A stretch of 51,343 bases of DNA, from contig JAJYEX010000004.1 of NCBI GenBank assembly GCA_021785515.1, positions 230,134 through 281,476 on the forward strand, given 5' to 3'. Each line of letters starts with the position of its first letter. Within the stretch, counting starts at the first letter, position 1. This DNA is from Pseudomonadota bacterium (GTDB lineage Bacteria > Pseudomonadota > Gammaproteobacteria > Acidiferrobacterales > UBA6901). The position numbers were made by a program, and so were the translations under genes. Positions 6,101-11,977 of the stretch are shown piece after piece. The notes below the pieces were generated by a model that was given only the letters and a program-made list of their open reading frames with translations, was not told where the DNA came from and made no database searches.

Positions 6101-7369
6101 ATGAAATGGTTTTCGCAGATATATTACCGCTACAGCAAGTCCTGGAAGATCATCAAGCTGTACTTCCTCATTGCTGGCCCAGGCCTGGTCGTGATGATCG
6201 CCGACAATGATGCAGGCGGGATCACCACCTATGCTGCCACCAGCGCGAAGTACGGCTACGGCCTGATCTGGTTTCTGTTGCTGCTGGTTCCGGTCGCCTA
6301 CTTTGTGCAGGAGATGACGGTACGCCTCGGGGCGGTCACCAAGCGCGGGCACGCTGAGGCCATTTTTGACGGGTTCGGTGCCTTCTGGGGCTGGTTCTCC
6401 CTGATCGATCTCATGCTGGTCGACTGGCTCACGCTGGTCACGGAATTCATCGGCATGACCGCGGCGCTGCGCATTTTCGGGGTTCCGCCGTACCTCACGG
6501 TCGCTGCCGTGTGTCTGCTGCTCGGCGTCATCGTGCTGAACGGGCGTTACTGGACCTGGGAGAAGATCGCGCTGGTGTTCTGCGCCTTCAACCTGATTTA
6601 CATCCCGGGCGCCTTTATCGTGCATCCCTCGGTCTCTTCGCTTGTGCACAACGGGCTTATTCCAAATTTCCCCGGGGGCTTCAACGGGGAGATGTTCTTC
6701 TATTTGATGGCAAACATTGGCACGACGATCGCGCCTTGGATGCTGTTTTTCCAGCAGAGCGCTGTCGTCGACAAAGGCATGACCGAGAAGGACATCCCCT
6801 GGGGGAAGTTCGACACGATGCTGGGTTCCCTGGTAACGGGGATTGTCGGGATATTCATATTCATTGTCGGCGGCACGGTGCTGAGGGGGGTGGACATCGA
6901 GAGTGCCGGCCAGGCTTCGCGCCTGCTGATGGGTGTCAACCGGTATCTCGGTACCTTCATGGCCATCGGGCTGTTCGATGCGGGCCTGTTAGGAGCCATC
7001 TGCATTTCCCTGGCGAGCTCCTGGGCTTTCGGTGAAATATTCGGATGGGCGCATTCGCTCAACAACAACATCAAGGAAGCGCCGTGGTTCTACGCCAACT
7101 ACTTTCTGACTCTGCTGACGGCCGGCGCGGTGGTCCTGATCCCGGGCGCACCTCTGGTACTGATCACGCTGTTCGTGCAGGTGGTGGCAGTCACACTCCT
7201 GCCGGCCGCCCTGGTATTTCTGATCCTGCTGCTCAATGACGAAAAGACCATGGGCGAGTACAGGAACACCAGGATTCAGAACATCCTTAACAGTGTGATC
7301 GTGCTGACCATTGTTGTGCTATCGTCCTTGTATGGGGTCAGCGTGCTGTTCCCGAAACTCTTTCAGTAG
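6101..7369 (+). CDS. NRAMP-related divalent metal transporter, probably magnesium type
   Basis: A 422-residue protein with about 11 hydrophobic segments of the NRAMP/SLC11 fold. The residues that select transition metals in MntH-type transporters are changed. The TM1 motif DPGN reads DAGG (D37-G40, within GPGLVVMIADNDAGG), and the TM6 methionine of MPH is alanine (IAPW, 210-213). From memory of the NRAMP-related magnesium transporters, loss of that asparagine and methionine accompanies Mg2+ rather than Mn2+/Fe2+ use. The downstream partner carries an MgtE regulatory domain, which supports the same ion. The gene is followed after 11 bp by a 57-residue membrane peptide and then the PRC-MgtE-CBS gene, likely one operon. 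Start ATG 6101 has a GGAG 11 bp upstream. Confidence 0.85.
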   Translation: MKWFSQIYYRYSKSWKIIKLYFLIAGPGLVVMIADNDAGGITTYAATSAKYGYGLIWFLLLLVPVAYFVQEMTVRLGAVTKRGHAEAIFDGFGAFWGWFSLIDLMLVDWLTLVTEFIGMTAALRIFGVPPYLTVAAVCLLLGVIVLNGRYWTWEKIALVFCAFNLIYIPGAFIVHPSVSSLVHNGLIPNFPGGFNGEMFFYLMANIGTTIAPWMLFFQQSAVVDKGMTEKDIPWGKFDTMLGSLVTGIVGIFIFIVGGTVLRGVDIESAGQASRLLMGVNRYLGTFMAIGLFDAGLLGAICISLASSWAFGEIFGWAHSLNNNIKEAPWFYANYFLTLLTAGAVVLIPGAPLVLITLFVQVVAVTLLPAALVFLILLLNDEKTMGEYRNTRIQNILNSVIVLTIVVLSSLYGVSVLFPKLFQ

Positions 7370-7380
7370 GCGAGAGCGTC

Positions 7381-7554
7381 ATGTGGAAGATTGTGCGGCG
7401 GCAGTTCGAGAAGATCGGCGAGATCAACAGGAAATATTCCAAGCCGCGGATTGAGATGTCCGCGCCAGTGCGATGGTCGCTGCTGCTGCTGCGCTGCTAC
7501 CTGCTTTTTCTGGTAGGCCTGATGATTTTCCGGTTCATCACCCTGTTGCATTGA
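7381..7554 (+). CDS. 57-residue single-pass membrane peptide between transporter and MgtE-like gene
   Basis: ATG 7381 to TGA 7552-7554 encodes 57 residues: a basic, soluble N-terminal half (WKIVRRQFEKIGEINRKYSK) then one hydrophobic helix (WSLLLLRCYLLFLVGLMIF) and a short tail. It starts 11 bp after the NRAMP-related stop and ends 34 bp before the next gene, filling the gap in the same direction. The positive-inside rule places the N-terminus in the cytoplasm. No family is recognised. Its position suggests a small accessory subunit or regulator of the transporter. Confidence 0.6.
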   Translation: MWKIVRRQFEKIGEINRKYSKPRIEMSAPVRWSLLLLRCYLLFLVGLMIFRFITLLH

Positions 7555-7588
7555 CGGCGGTACCGGCTGCCGGTACGGGAAGGCAAGA

Positions 7589-8836
7589 ATGACAACGATC
7601 ATGACAACCGCCTTTTATCTCAGCGAGATAATCGGCAGGAAAGTGTTTCTGGGCGCGCGCAAGCTTGGCAAGCTCCATGACCTGGTCATCGCCGAGACCG
7701 GGAAGCTGCCGGAGGTGACCCATTTCCTGGTGGCCCGTCCGTTCGGGCACCATGCGCTGCTCGTACCCTGGGACAAGGTCGAGGTCATTACCGAGACGGA
7801 GGTTGCGGTCCGCCTGGAGGGGGTCGAGCAATACGAGAAGGATCCGGCGCGCTCGAGCATTCTGCTTAAGGACTACATCCTGGACAAGAAGGTGCTGGAC
7901 CTGGATGACAACGAAGTCGACATCGTCTACGACGTGAGACTGGTAGCCCGCAATGGCAAGATCTACGTCACGGACGTGGATTTCAGCCGTTCGCGGCTTC
8001 TGCGCAGAATGGGCTTGAGCCGGCTGGCGAACCTGTTCTCCGGAAACGGCAAGGCGGAAATGCTGTCCTGGGCCTATGTCCAGCCGTTGCCGGAGCATAT
8101 CGGCCCGTTTTCCGGCGAGGTGAAGCTGCGGGTTCTCAAGGAAAAGCTCTCGGAAATTCATCCGGTAGATCTGGCGGACATCCTGGAAGAGCTCGATCCC
8201 GCACAGCGACTTGCGGTGTTCAGCCAGCTGGAGACCGAACGTGCTGCTTCTACGCTGGAAGAAGTGGAGCCGCGGGTGCAGCGCGACCTGATCTCCTCCG
8301 TTCAGAAGGAGCGGACGGCGGAACTGATCAACAGCATGACCCCGGCGCAGGCGGCGGACGTCCTGGCGATATTGCCGGCATCCGATGCCGACGACATCCT
8401 GAAGCTCGTAGACCAGGAAACCGCACCCAAGGTCCAGTTTCTCATGGACAAGCATGATGAGCGCATTCTCAATTTCGTGACATCGCGTTTCATCAAGTAC
8501 GGACCCGGTACGCGCGTCAGCGAGGTGCTGGGCCAGTACCGGGAGGTCTCGCGGGAAAAAGATGTCATCATCTACCTGTATGTGGTTGACGAGCAGGACA
8601 AGCTGCTGGGAGTGGTCGATCTGGCCAGGTTGCTGCTGTCCGACGCCGACGCCAGGCTGGATGCGATCATGGTCACCAGCGTCATCCATCTCGATTCGCA
8701 AAGTACCGTGCTCGAAGCGTCCGAAACCTTTGTACGCTACGGTTTCCGGGCGCTGCCAGTCGTGAATGAGACAGATACCATTCTGGGGGTGATTCCCTAC
8801 CGCGATATCATGAATCTCAAGCACCGCTACGTGTGA
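7589..8836 (+). CDS. Soluble PRC-barrel / MgtE-N / CBS-pair protein
   Basis: A 415-residue protein without membrane segments. An N-terminal PRC-barrel-like region (about residues 8-75) and a second similar segment (about 92-145) precede an MgtE_N superhelix (about 165-290; HPVDLADILEELDPAQRLAV, MTPAQAADVLAILPASDADD). A CBS pair follows (about 295-412). In MgtE the N and CBS domains sense cytosolic Mg2+ and gate the pore, but here the MgtE transmembrane domain is absent. Sitting just after an NRAMP-related transporter, it most likely senses Mg2+ and regulates that carrier, with the PRC barrel as a docking surface. That is inference. Start ATG 7589 has GGGAAGG upstream. Confidence 0.85.
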   Translation: MTTIMTTAFYLSEIIGRKVFLGARKLGKLHDLVIAETGKLPEVTHFLVARPFGHHALLVPWDKVEVITETEVAVRLEGVEQYEKDPARSSILLKDYILDKKVLDLDDNEVDIVYDVRLVARNGKIYVTDVDFSRSRLLRRMGLSRLANLFSGNGKAEMLSWAYVQPLPEHIGPFSGEVKLRVLKEKLSEIHPVDLADILEELDPAQRLAVFSQLETERAASTLEEVEPRVQRDLISSVQKERTAELINSMTPAQAADVLAILPASDADDILKLVDQETAPKVQFLMDKHDERILNFVTSRFIKYGPGTRVSEVLGQYREVSREKDVIIYLYVVDEQDKLLGVVDLARLLLSDADARLDAIMVTSVIHLDSQSTVLEASETFVRYGFRALPVVNETDTILGVIPYRDIMNLKHRYV

Positions 8837-8900: not shown

Positions 8901-9027
8901 GTGAAAAGTCAGTAACACCGTGCTCGAGGACAGGACGTCACGCCTGGGTGTCGGGCACGCCAGGGATGGATACCCGCACCGCGGGAGGTTATAGTCTCGG
9001 CCAGTGGACTGTCAGGGAGCGACGGCC

Positions 9028-9642
9028 ATGACCCATATATCTGTTCTGTCCGCAGCCCGGACCGCGGCGCGGCCGCCGGCCTGCGACCGGGCCCTGTTTC
9101 ACGATCTTGCGGTTGTCCGGTTCATTGCGCGGGATCTCATCGAGCGTTGGCACTACGACTGTTCCGGTACCGCCGGGCGGCGGCTGGCACGTCTGGAGCA
9201 GGCCGGAGTCCTGTGCAGCAGACCGCTTTTTGCGGCCGGGCAGCAGCCGGTACGCATCTATCGCTTCACGGCCCGCGCGTATGCCGTCCACTGGGGTGAT
9301 CCGGTGCCACCGGCCTGGGCCGCGCGCAGGCTCCATCATGAGATCCTGACGGCGCGGGCTTACTTCGCGCTGAACCGTCCCCTGGGCTTTCGGGTCGCAG
9401 TGCATCTGGACGCTGCGCAGCGCGCCCGCTTCGAGTTGCACTCTCCCGATGCGATTTATCCGCAGGGTGATGAGCTTGTACTGGTCGAGGCCGACAGCGG
9501 GCGGTACACCGCGCGCCAGATCCGCGACAAGATGGGCTACTGGCGGGCTGCCGGGTTCCCGCACCAGGTCTGGGTGCAGCCGGCGCAGACGGCTGCTGCA
9601 CGGGTTCCGGAAGGACCCGGTATCCGAATCCTCAGGCTGTGA
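9028..9642 (+). CDS. Replication-relaxation-like winged-helix / PD-(D/E)xK-like protein
   Basis: About 204 residues from ATG 9028, which has a GGGAG site and a better N-terminus than the in-frame ATG at 9004. The N-terminal half is a winged helix (VVRFIARDLIERWHYDCSG, AGRRLARLEQAGVL). The C-terminal half carries PDAIY, ELVLVEADSG and QIRDK, a PD...ExD...K pattern typical of the replication-relaxation family related to nuclease-like folds found with mobilisation modules. It should bind DNA in the cytoplasm. Its stop overlaps the next start by 4 bp (GTGA), indicating translational coupling with the second wHTH gene and the ATPase. Whether it still cleaves DNA cannot be judged from sequence alone. 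Confidence 0.65.
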   Translation: MTHISVLSAARTAARPPACDRALFHDLAVVRFIARDLIERWHYDCSGTAGRRLARLEQAGVLCSRPLFAAGQQPVRIYRFTARAYAVHWGDPVPPAWAARRLHHEILTARAYFALNRPLGFRVAVHLDAAQRARFELHSPDAIYPQGDELVLVEADSGRYTARQIRDKMGYWRAAGFPHQVWVQPAQTAAARVPEGPGIRILRL

Positions 9643-10322
9643 AGCGTGCCGCGCGGCCGCCAGGATTTACCGTCCGGAGCAGCTCACGAACGGCACGGGT
9701 CGCGGCCGCGCACGATCCATTCGGCCCCGCAAGTCTGAAATGCCGTATCCTGCTTGAGCTCGCGCGGCTTGAGTTTGCCACCACGACACAGCTCGCCTAC
9801 TGGTGCCGGGCATCGATCCCAGGCGTATCCCGTGCCGCTCTGACGCTGGCGAAGCTCGGGCACATTGAGTTGTGCAGTCTGCCGAGACCGTTTATCTGGT
9901 ACGCGGCCGGACCCGCCTGTTGGGCGGTCATGGCGCACGCCTGTCATCGCAACACCCTGGAGATCGTGCTCGATCGACAGCAGGGCGGTTTCCGTTTCCT
10001 GCAGCGGGTCGACCTGCTGCGTAAGGGTTTCAATCCGGCGCGAGGCGAACATGCCGGAGTCGATGCCCACGGAAGCATGTGGCTCGTGCTGCTCGACGAT
10101 TCCTCGATGAAGTGCGAACGCATCGGGCGGACATGGTGGCGGCGCCATACGCCGAGTCCACGACACTGGCCGGACCCGACCGGCCGCTGCTGGGGCGACG
10201 TGGTTCAACACTACGTTGTCGCCTGTACGGACACGTGCCGGGCCAGGCGGCACCGTGCCTGGATCACCACCCGGGATGTGCCGGCGTGCGTGACCGAGAT
10301 CCAGGATCCTTGGCTGGCATGA
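9639..10322 (+). CDS. Second winged-helix protein with degenerate nuclease-like C-terminus
   Basis: GTG start at 9639, overlapping the preceding stop by 4 bp; 227 residues. The central region is a winged helix (ILLELARLEFATTTQLAYWC, ALTLAKLGHIEL). The C-terminal part (AGVDAHGSMWLVLLDDSSMK, then GRTWWRRH) loosely mirrors the D...LLD...K pattern of the upstream gene, so the two may be divergent paralogues acting together. It is rich in Cys, His and Trp near the end. No catalytic motif is complete. The stop overlaps the ATPase start by 4 bp (ATGA). The function is probably DNA recognition for the VirD4-like ATPase, by inference from context. Confidence 0.55.
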   Translation: MKRAARPPGFTVRSSSRTARVAAAHDPFGPASLKCRILLELARLEFATTTQLAYWCRASIPGVSRAALTLAKLGHIELCSLPRPFIWYAAGPACWAVMAHACHRNTLEIVLDRQQGGFRFLQRVDLLRKGFNPARGEHAGVDAHGSMWLVLLDDSSMKCERIGRTWWRRHTPSPRHWPDPTGRCWGDVVQHYVVACTDTCRARRHRAWITTRDVPACVTEIQDPWLA

Positions 10323-11977
10323 GCGTCATTGCCGGCATCCTGCTGTTCGTTCTTGGAATCGACGCGGTCGCGGCCTCGATTTTTTATCGGGCCTGGCAAC
10401 CGGTCGTGCTGACTGTCGCGTTCGCCGTAACCGTGGCCGTTCTGGTGCGTTGTGTCCGCCAGGCGCAGCGCAGTGTGAACTGCGACGGCTGGCTGCTGGG
10501 CGCGGCCATCGAGGTGAGCGATCCCGACCGGCCGCGGCGGGTTGCGGCGGCGCGTCTTTCCTGGGATGTGCTGGATCTCGGCCTGATTGCGATCGGCGCG
10601 CCCGGCTCCGGCAAGACGGATTCGGTCATGCTGGGCTACATAGGCGCTCACGGCGAATATCGGCCGCGCTGCGGCTGGACGTTCTTCGACGGGAAAGGGG
10701 ACGTCGATACCTACCGGAAATGTGTCGGGCTGGGCTGTGCCCCCGATCACTTTTTTTCCAGCGAGCTGCCAGGCTCAGAGTCGGTCAATCTTTTCGAAGG
10801 AGCGGCTGCGGACGTGGTCGACCGGCTGTCGAAGGTGCTTATCGCCACCACCGAGAGCACCTCGTTTTACATGGACGAGCAGCGCGCCGTACTGGCGCGC
10901 ATGGTGCCGCTGCTGCTCGGTCTGCCGGTTGCGACCTGCCTGCGCGACCTGTACGTGACACTCAGTGTTAAGGATGCCGGAAACGAGCTTCTGCGCCGGG
11001 CTCGCAGCGCCGGCGCCGATCCGGCAGAGATTACTCTGGCGCGCCAGTGGCTTGATCAGCCCTTTGCCACGCGCACCCGCAACGTGTCAGGGCTGCTCAA
11101 CCGCCTGTTCGTGTTCGTGGCGGGACCCTGGTCGGACCGGCTGAACGCCTACGCGCCGGATATCCGGATCGATCGGCTCGTCAGTGGTGGCGAATCGCTG
11201 TTTGCCCATCTGCCACTTACGGCTTTTGCCCGCGACGTGGCCATCGCTCTTATTGAAATGTTCGGAGTGGAAGCGCGGCGGCGGCAGATCGAGCACGTCG
11301 GGGTGCCGGATAGCTATCCGTTGCTGTTTGACGACTGGGGGGCGTTTTTCCACGACGGTTTCGGGCCGTTCAGTGCACGCTGCCGCTCTGCCCGGATGCC
11401 GCTTTCATTCGGCTTCCAGTCGCACGCGCAGCTGCGCGCTGTCGGACCGGGCTATGCCGATGAGCTGGACGATACGGTGGCCACCAAGATGATCCTGCGG
11501 GTACAGGGAGAGGGGACGGCACGCTATGCAGTGCGTCTTCTCGGACAGTACGAGGCGGTGGAACTGGCCACCCGGAGATGGACTGGGGGTGCGGGCATAA
11601 GCCTTCAGTTCGCTTCGTGCGACCGGGTGACGGAGCGCATGCTGCGCGAAATGCAGGCGGGTGAAGCCTACATCTCGACGCTTGCGCACAGCGCCGGCGG
11701 TGTGCGCAATCCGCTGTGGCGTCTGCGTTTGAAGCTGCCGGAATTCGGAGCATGGAGAACTGTGGTGCTGCCGGCCACGCCGGCGCCGGTGGTGGCGGAA
11801 GGTCTGGATTTCTGGGGCCGGTATATGAATCCGGCGCGGCTGGCGGAAATCCATCGGCAGGCTGCATACGCGCAGTCAGAGCCGGACCGGGCGGGACACG
11901 ACAGGCGTGACCGGCACTCCGGACCGCTGCCGGAGGGCCATGCGGATCCGCGGTCCGGCCCCAGGGGGCGCACATGA
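10319..11977 (+). CDS. VirD4/TraD-like coupling ATPase
   Basis: About 552 residues from ATG 10319. The frame can be extended to 10079, but the ATGA overlap and immediate membrane segment favour 10319. Two hydrophobic N-terminal segments (about 2-20 and 27-46) anchor it. Walker A is GAPGSGKT (93-100), followed by WTFFDGKGD, which resembles the DPKGE-type block of coupling proteins. Walker B is probably YPLLFDDWG (333-341). The fold matches type IV secretion coupling proteins that pump DNA or nucleoprotein through the membrane. No relaxase or T4SS channel gene is visible in this window. It is flanked by two winged-helix genes and a small membrane protein, all with 4-bp overlaps. Confidence 0.8.
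   Translation: MSVIAGILLFVLGIDAVAASIFYRAWQPVVLTVAFAVTVAVLVRCVRQAQRSVNCDGWLLGAAIEVSDPDRPRRVAAARLSWDVLDLGLIAIGAPGSGKTDSVMLGYIGAHGEYRPRCGWTFFDGKGDVDTYRKCVGLGCAPDHFFSSELPGSESVNLFEGAAADVVDRLSKVLIATTESTSFYMDEQRAVLARMVPLLLGLPVATCLRDLYVTLSVKDAGNELLRRARSAGADPAEITLARQWLDQPFATRTRNVSGLLNRLFVFVAGPWSDRLNAYAPDIRIDRLVSGGESLFAHLPLTAFARDVAIALIEMFGVEARRRQIEHVGVPDSYPLLFDDWGAFFHDGFGPFSARCRSARMPLSFGFQSHAQLRAVGPGYADELDDTVATKMILRVQGEGTARYAVRLLGQYEAVELATRRWTGGAGISLQFASCDRVTERMLREMQAGEAYISTLAHSAGGVRNPLWRLRLKLPEFGAWRTVVLPATPAPVVAEGLDFWGRYMNPARLAEIHRQAAYAQSEPDRAGHDRRDRHSGPLPEGHADPRSGPRGRT

Follow-up and report, generated by a model that had tools for sequence, protein, structure and literature searches.

Canonical NRAMP/MntH carriers mediate proton-coupled transport of manganese and iron. 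The related NRMTs, bacterial magnesium importers that have received little study, have the binding-site motif DxxG-TxxA/T (PMC8806188), and one of them, EleNRMT, transports Mg2+ (PMC13060092). Most NrmT genes considered by Shin et al. in 2014 (PMC4072509) adjoin a gene homologous to the cytoplasmic domain of MgtE, the 'small ORF' (open reading frame) of that study, and feedback regulation was proposed; the published complementation with clostridial NrmT members was carried out with the carrier alone, leaving aside its MgtE-like neighbor (PMC4072509). Here, we describe an NRMT-type locus with a third gene, found in a stretch of 51,343 nucleotides (the window) that corresponds to positions 230,134-281,476 on the forward strand of contig JAJYEX010000004.1, assembly GCA_021785515.1, of a Pseudomonadota bacterium (Gammaproteobacteria; Acidiferrobacterales; UBA6901). 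Its genes encode a carrier (T), a peptide (P) and an MgtE-like partner (M; Table 1). L-numbers denote loci and G-numbers genomes, G000 being the genome of the window. T-P-M is probably an importer operon for a divalent metal, most likely Mg2+, composed of the carrier T, the helix subunit P and the cytosolic regulator M. Most likely, P is a transporter subunit with a gene of its own, because its helix appears homologous to tails fused to other carriers and is tied to the type of binding site in our sample.

Table 1. Genes of the T-P-M locus (positions within the window)
Gene	Product	Position	Strand	Length	Characteristics
T	NRAMP-related (NRMT-type) carrier	6101..7369	+	422 aa	NDAGG in transmembrane helix 1 (TM1), GTTIAPW in TM6, 11 hydrophobic segments
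P	One-helix peptide	7381..7554	+	57 aa	Basic N-terminal segment, helix with LR.YL
M	Soluble partner	7589..8836	+	415 aa	PRC 8-66, beta-rich ~98-131, MgtE_N 190-286, CBS pair

The basic segment of P carries the motif KI..IN..Y..P.I.MS in front of a single transmembrane helix. P came nowhere near a Pfam cut-off and had no match in NCBIfam. A fused counterpart was found on plasmids. In 10 of 14 plasmid NRMT loci, picked from the 40 that were listed among 217 matching records, the carrier bears an extra C-terminal helix with the pattern W.MP....L......S.........LR.YL. Of the tailed carriers, seven are annotated (530-557 amino acids), two (L128 and L132) are unannotated, and the reading of L135 is broken; in the other four loci a small ORF follows straight after the carrier. 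P and the fused helix share the similarity P...[MW]S...LR.YL. Comparison of P with 16 fused tails by hhalign resulted in probabilities of 95.5-95.8% (E-values 7e-9 to 1.6e-8), ungapped over residues 22-55 of P. As controls, 61 windows taken elsewhere in T, fused T and M reached at most 5.8% and 100 column-shuffled tails at most 7.3%, and a tail window cut directly from the fused alignment scored 82.5%. For the 16 tails taken together, this comparison decisively indicates homology between P and the last helix that other NRMTs carry as a fusion. The separate form was also present on plasmids of Citrobacter freundii and Serratia marcescens, both typed as conjugative, with 78% identity in T. On both, P sits between T and M but lacks the otherwise invariant Pro22, and it does not occur in the gene table shown for these records, which is incomplete. 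Neither fused carriers nor M were found in viral contigs searched with two short patterns each.

The P profile was run at an E-value of 1e-3 against 398 genomes sampled evenly across the phylum and matched eight of them, seven of which were T-P-M genomes. The remaining match, in G330 (E-value 8e-4), was set aside as a chance match; its first 400 bases were read, and G330 has no NRMT-like place. Whole-profile matches of M, among the matches listed, fell into the same seven genomes. The fused-carrier alignment, used as a query against all 398 genomes at an E-value of 1e-40, matched 26 places in 19 genomes, all of which were examined. Seven combine a TxxA site with a fused tail (four recognized by the P profile at E-values of 0.006-0.3, three by eye only), and seven combine TxxA with separate P and M. 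Two have an AxxT site and a separate P-like ORF (E-values 0.003 and 5e-4) without M, and ten have AxxM (9) or AxxN (1) with neither P nor tail. Thus, the helix accompanied 16 out of 16 TxxA/AxxT carriers (7 fused, 9 separate) versus none out of 10 AxxM/AxxN carriers (Fisher 1.9e-7, a value which ignores relatedness, several genomes sharing genera). The two AxxT carriers (L175 in G004 and L176 in G059) share the sequence GATVTPWM and represent an intermediate site type.

A FastTree tree of 49 rows united the P-bearing carriers in one clade (support 0.91, 38 rows), divided into a fused subclade (1.0, 16 rows) and a split subclade (1.0, 22 rows). The AxxM clade (1.0, 9 rows including L186) stood beside it, and EleNRMT fell outside on a separate branch. 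L093, L135, L170, L172, L174, L184 and most of the 80 close relatives described below were left out of this tree.

At a threshold of 1.3, 11 hydrophobic segments were predicted in T (10 at 1.4-1.5, 9-10 over 1.4-1.6), one in P, and 13 in seven out of seven fused carriers (11-13 at 1.4-1.6). The N-terminus of NRAMP-family carriers lies inside; with 11 helices, T should therefore end outside. In fused carriers the P-like helix is preceded by an additional one, which would bring the tail back inside, and P, being basic before its helix, should insert with its N-terminus inside. In both forms the conserved pre-helix segment would thus be placed in the cytosol, and the connecting helix 12 would be required only in the fused form. 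According to the mechanism proposed here, T would be an 11-helix carrier belonging to the NRMT branch within the NRAMP superfamily, and P the additional helix that elsewhere is fused as helix 13 and here is encoded by a gene of its own, with its basic N-terminus in the cytosol. P would pack on T, a contact which we infer, and M with its MgtE-type N domain, CBS pair and PRC domain would dock on the T-P complex and adjust uptake.

The coordinates, strands and lengths of the three genes given in an earlier note, made from the DNA sequence alone, were correct. In the window T and P are separated by 11 nucleotides and P and M by 34 nucleotides. From 551 encoding places in the genome collection, the best 80 were kept as a non-random sample with T identities of 73-91%. 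By tblastn, all three genes were recovered in order and on the same strand in 78 of these loci; of the other two, L034 has a P that tblastn missed and L024 stops within P. The P signature follows T within 400 nucleotides in 79 loci. Only in L078 is it missing, where the start of P is present and assembly Ns leave the helix unread. The earlier note's 57-residue membrane peptide holds, with one predicted helix. Median gaps are 14 nucleotides between T and P and 13 nucleotides between P and M, and gaps do not exceed 50 nucleotides in 77 and 75 of the 78 loci, respectively. This gene order is beyond chance, and the three genes are presumably co-transcribed. Conservation of the order was what the earlier note had looked to, as opposed to an arrangement unique to one genome, and the order recurs in the 80 closest relatives.

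Pairwise distances of the T, P and M proteins are correlated (r 0.82-0.90, 74 loci). Values of dN/dS against the three nearest relatives indicate purifying selection on P (0.09-0.11 for P, with 0.05-0.07 for T and 0.07-0.08 for M); a value of 0.36 for P between L005 and L006 rests on very few differences. The record titles of the 80 loci name Beta-, Gamma-, Alpha- and Deltaproteobacteria, Chlorobiaceae and Nitrospiraceae, and further Cyanobacteria, Marinamargulisbacteria, Akkermansiaceae and one archaeon, mostly from metagenome bins, of which single titles may be wrong. The genes flanking T-P-M vary, the most frequent cluster of neighboring genes occurring in no more than 9 of the 80 loci. Since the titles span many phyla, T stays at least 73% identical, and the flanks differ, T-P-M probably is a self-contained operon that has moved as a unit.

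T was assigned to the Pfam family Nramp (E-value 1.2e-72). Its best solved relative by sequence is EleNRMT (7qia, E-value 5.2e-62), the next, a canonical NRAMP, following at 4.5e-15. The top fold match of the T model is likewise 7qia (E-value 1.0e-18, TM score 0.83); this model is weak (mean pLDDT 66.5) and was used for fold recognition only. In both sequence and fold, T is closer to EleNRMT than to canonical NRAMP. GTTIAPW is found in all 80 relatives and DNDAGG in 78, the other two having DNDACG and DNDAAG. The changes from DPGN to DAGG in TM1 and from methionine to alanine in TM6, pointed out by the earlier note, are thus seen, and its classification as a magnesium-type NRAMP relative agrees with the DxxG-TxxA/T motif of T and the nearest solved structure. 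G000 also encodes a second NRAMP-related carrier (C11:532026-533120; L002, L180) with DTDAGS and the AxxM-type sequence GAVIMPWM. It is one of the ten AxxM/AxxN carriers of the sample. Neither P nor M was found alongside, which makes it a natural control for T.

Regarding other routes of magnesium uptake, G000 is 99.92% complete and contains neither CorA (present in 14 out of 14 controls) nor the MgtE pore (9 out of 14). No ATPase in G000 exceeded the MgtA cut-off, the best reaching 311 of 611 bits, and only 2 out of 14 controls have an MgtA above it. No other known magnesium importer was therefore found in this genome, which supports magnesium import by T. CorA and MgtE are both absent from 9 out of 16 P-bearing genomes versus 59 out of 382 others (p 3e-4, Fisher, relatedness ignored; MgtE was scored with PF01769 in the former and by proxy, as an M profile match at an E-value of at most 1e-20, in the latter), and CorA alone from 10 out of 16 versus 121 out of 382. 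A version of the test requiring a strong CorA match (11 out of 16) was rejected as biased, since it demotes weak matches in the P-bearing group only. Among the seven T-P-M genomes, G089 and G145 possess CorA and MgtE, G061 and G149 have a weak partial CorA match, and G177 has MgtA.

The domains of M were identified by Pfam, the CBS pair as two stretches. The pore domain PF01769 was found neither in M nor in the whole of G000, which confirms the earlier description of a partner with MgtE-N and CBS domains and no MgtE pore. M resembles the MgtE cytosolic domain by sequence (E-value 1.2e-23) and by model fold (2yvy, E-value 1.6e-19); the domain arrangement of the model (pTM 0.41) was not used. 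The earlier note spoke of PRC-barrel modules, of which one stands: the second beta-rich domain, seen in the model, has no detectable similarity to the first. A second PRC by sequence was rejected, as Pfam finds one and hhalign gave a probability of 0.8 to the first.

A regulatory role of M is probable. The signal to which M responds was approached by comparing 52 M proteins of the clade with 26 MgtE-like controls from 23 sample loci, which were taken to be channels. According to one proposal, put forward in the earlier note, M is a magnesium sensor in trans which closes T at high cytosolic Mg2+ through MgtE's own site chemistry. This we regard as doubtful. The MgtE_N and CBS fold is kept, Shin et al. 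proposed feedback regulation (PMC4072509), and among the Mg2+-site residues of MgtE (taken from PMC5882242) Asp247 is found in 50 of the 52 M proteins (acidic in 23 of 26 controls) and Asp95 in 41 (acidic in 23 of 26 controls), and position 59 is acidic in 49. Against it, position 91 is acidic in none of the M proteins but in all 26 controls and all five actinobacterial partners, and Asp250 is retained in 1 versus 19 of 26 and Asp226 in 3 versus only 10 of 26. Moreover, M ends straight after the CBS pair without a plug helix, and the M of the window has Ser at position 59, which is acidic in only 7 of 26 controls. The five actinobacterial partners keep residues 91, 95 and 247, with Asp at 59, Glu at 250 and Asn at 226. 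Because of the loss of Asp91, nearly all Asp226 and Asp250, and the plug helix, the M clade probably does not sense magnesium in the manner of MgtE, and the Mg2+ closing mechanism of MgtE hardly seems to have been carried over; of the proposed sensor, the fold stands and the site chemistry probably does not. M would instead regulate T by a different signal, for which adenine nucleotide is our best guess, loosely held. That uptake follows the energy or Mg-ATP state in this way is a tentative possibility, suggested by an ATP site that is largely kept while the Mg2+ sites are largely lost. Among the ATP contacts of MgtE listed in PMC5529423, Tyr170 is present in 52 of 52 M proteins (15 of 26 controls), Phe227 in 49 (0 of 26), Arg/Lys at 187 in 45 (25 of 26) and Asp/Glu at 188 in 47 (1 of 26). 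However, the base-contacting Asn203 is kept in none of the M proteins (10 of 26 controls), the retained residues could be related to the fold, and the M of the window has Ala187 and Arg188, lacking the Arg and the acid of the nucleotide site, which may mean that phosphate and ribose contacts are lost. It is rather unlikely, but conceivable, that the split last helix has been kept across phyla because its free cytosolic segment serves as a lever by which M, now reading adenine nucleotide, gates the carrier.

A number of observations weigh against the importer operon with P as a subunit. With the P profile run over 2382 ORFs, two plasmid P were found at 1e-19 and five tails at 3e-4 to 3e-3, the best chance ORF reaching 0.013. 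Four tails (0.014-0.4) and the small ORFs of L094 (0.018) and L129 (0.86) fell below that level, and L128 was unmatched. About half of the plasmid tails are thus no better than a chance ORF by this profile alone, and tails and ORFs not above it were assigned by position, pattern and profile comparison. The fused-carrier query contains the tail and may favor tailed carriers, although ten tailless ones still passed. EleNRMT has a TxxA site and, judging by chain length, no fused tail, which makes it an exception to the link between helix and site; as it transports Mg2+, not every NRMT requires the helix. No M was found near the seven chromosomal fused and the two AxxT carriers (2-3 kb examined), so the helix can occur without M; M is also absent in 7 out of 14 plasmid loci over the same distance. 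No Rfam family, including the magnesium riboswitch (M-box), reached the gathering threshold in the window. The A. capsulatum NrmT, which lies beside an MgtE-like gene, fully rescued manganese uptake and magnesium uptake only at low millimolar concentrations, and its co-expressed partner brought no better rescue (PMC4072509). EleNRMT site residues grafted onto EcoDMT conferred no Mg2+ transport (PMC13060092), so the substrate does not follow from the site type alone. In both enteric plasmid copies a small helix-turn-helix (HTH) regulator and a P-type ATPase adjoin T; on the Citrobacter plasmid the regulator is of the ArsR/SmtB type, the ATPase has a hemerythrin domain, and a CDF exporter is also present. 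With a Cellulomonas plasmid, whose T-M pair adjoins ArsR/SmtB and a heavy-metal ATPase, three plasmid loci have this kind of neighborhood, and annotated metal-sensing repressors adjoin two NRMTs without M. Together with the manganese rescue, these neighborhoods favor T as an importer of transition metals (Mn, Fe, Co, Ni) or a detoxification partner in a cassette of metal-stress islands. We consider this unlikely, since DraNramp gains some Mg2+ import through the TM6 change from Met to Ala alone (PMC13060092), genomes with P-bearing carriers are more often without CorA and MgtE, and two of the 80 loci (L007 and L051), a small number, have a P-type ATPase over the MgtA cut-off at most 5 kb from T. 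Likewise, P could be a small regulator in its own right, similar in kind to MgtS/MgtU and located in the operon by chance, rather than a piece of the carrier. Its small size and single helix would fit, and small peptides associate with MgtA and MgtB (PMC13209247), but the helix is fused to the carrier in all 16 tree rows of the sister clade, and this explanation is improbable.

Several genes in the surroundings of T-P-M and related loci are worth mentioning. A porin-like cluster was found upstream of T on the same strand in eight loci (L013, L015, L023, L024, L035, L052, L060, L072), at a distance of 19-82 nucleotides in seven of them and 368 nucleotides in L023; two members scanned against Pfam belong to the OprB family. 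As a fourth cassette gene this OprB-type porin was rejected because of too few loci (8 of 80), although it is a possible outer-membrane partner of the importer. A magnesium-type ATPase was rejected as a fourth gene as well, in view of its two loci; in the same five-locus cluster, L074 and L080 lie below the magnesium cut-off and are better described by calcium-type models, and L017 is a C-terminal piece only. Directly downstream of M, at 9004-11977 of the window, matches to Replic_Relax (below threshold) and to a TrwB-type coupling protein were detected, and the cassette may therefore abut an integrated conjugative element. The ATPase and HTH regulator genes are divergent from the NRMT gene at L092 (5652-8614) and L093 (7087-8657), both enteric, and at L133 (1-2530) of Cellulomonas. 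The annotated repressors beside NRMT genes without M are located at L129 (2062-2337) and L134 (2021-2296); we take them to be members of the CsoR/RcnR family, and transcriptional control may replace M at these two loci. On two actinobacterial plasmids, annotated MgtC/SapB family genes lie downstream of NRMT-M pairs (L095 5105-5815 and L130 5842-6624).

The T-M pairing and the feedback idea are already known (Shin et al. 2014, PMC4072509). Hence, the carrier-regulator idea of the earlier note, although probably right about regulation, was not new, and the interest of the peptide was missed. In the open-licence text of the literature, as distinct from figures and supplements such as Figure S5, no description of an extra helix or of a peptide gene beside an NRMT was found, and the available passages of PMC9606685, PMC10606218 and PMC6711546 do not mention either of them. 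The detached helix, its natural fusion, the link to the site type and the lost magnesium residues of the partner therefore appear to be new. If the helix indeed belongs to the carrier, assays of members of the P-bearing clade need the easily missed P gene, and split and fused forms provide a natural experiment. The MgtE-derived partner makes NRMT regulation testable with three small genes.

With the known NrmT/NRMT systems (Shin 2014; EleNRMT, 7qia, Ramanadane 2022) the T-P-M locus shares the DxxG-TxxA site, the fold and the adjacent MgtE-N-like gene of most NrmT loci. In contrast to EleNRMT, whose chain is without the extra C-terminal helix, this helix is provided by a separate gene; furthermore, the M-box riboswitch, found at some NRMTs and not required, is missing, and the partner includes a PRC domain and no longer has key Mg2+ residues. 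Canonical NRAMP/MntH carriers such as DraNramp and ScaDMT have the LeuT-type fold in common with T but differ in their DPGN-AxxM site. M shows the N domain followed by the CBS pair of the T. thermophilus MgtE cytosolic domain (2yvy, 2yvx), but it has neither pore nor plug helix, Asp91, Asp226 and Asp250 are replaced, and a PRC domain is placed in front. Like MgtS with MgtA and MgtU with MgtB, P is a tiny one-helix protein that seems to be tied to a magnesium transporter; unlike these, it apparently has its homologue in an integral helix of sister carriers, and its gene lies in the same cluster as that of its presumed partner.

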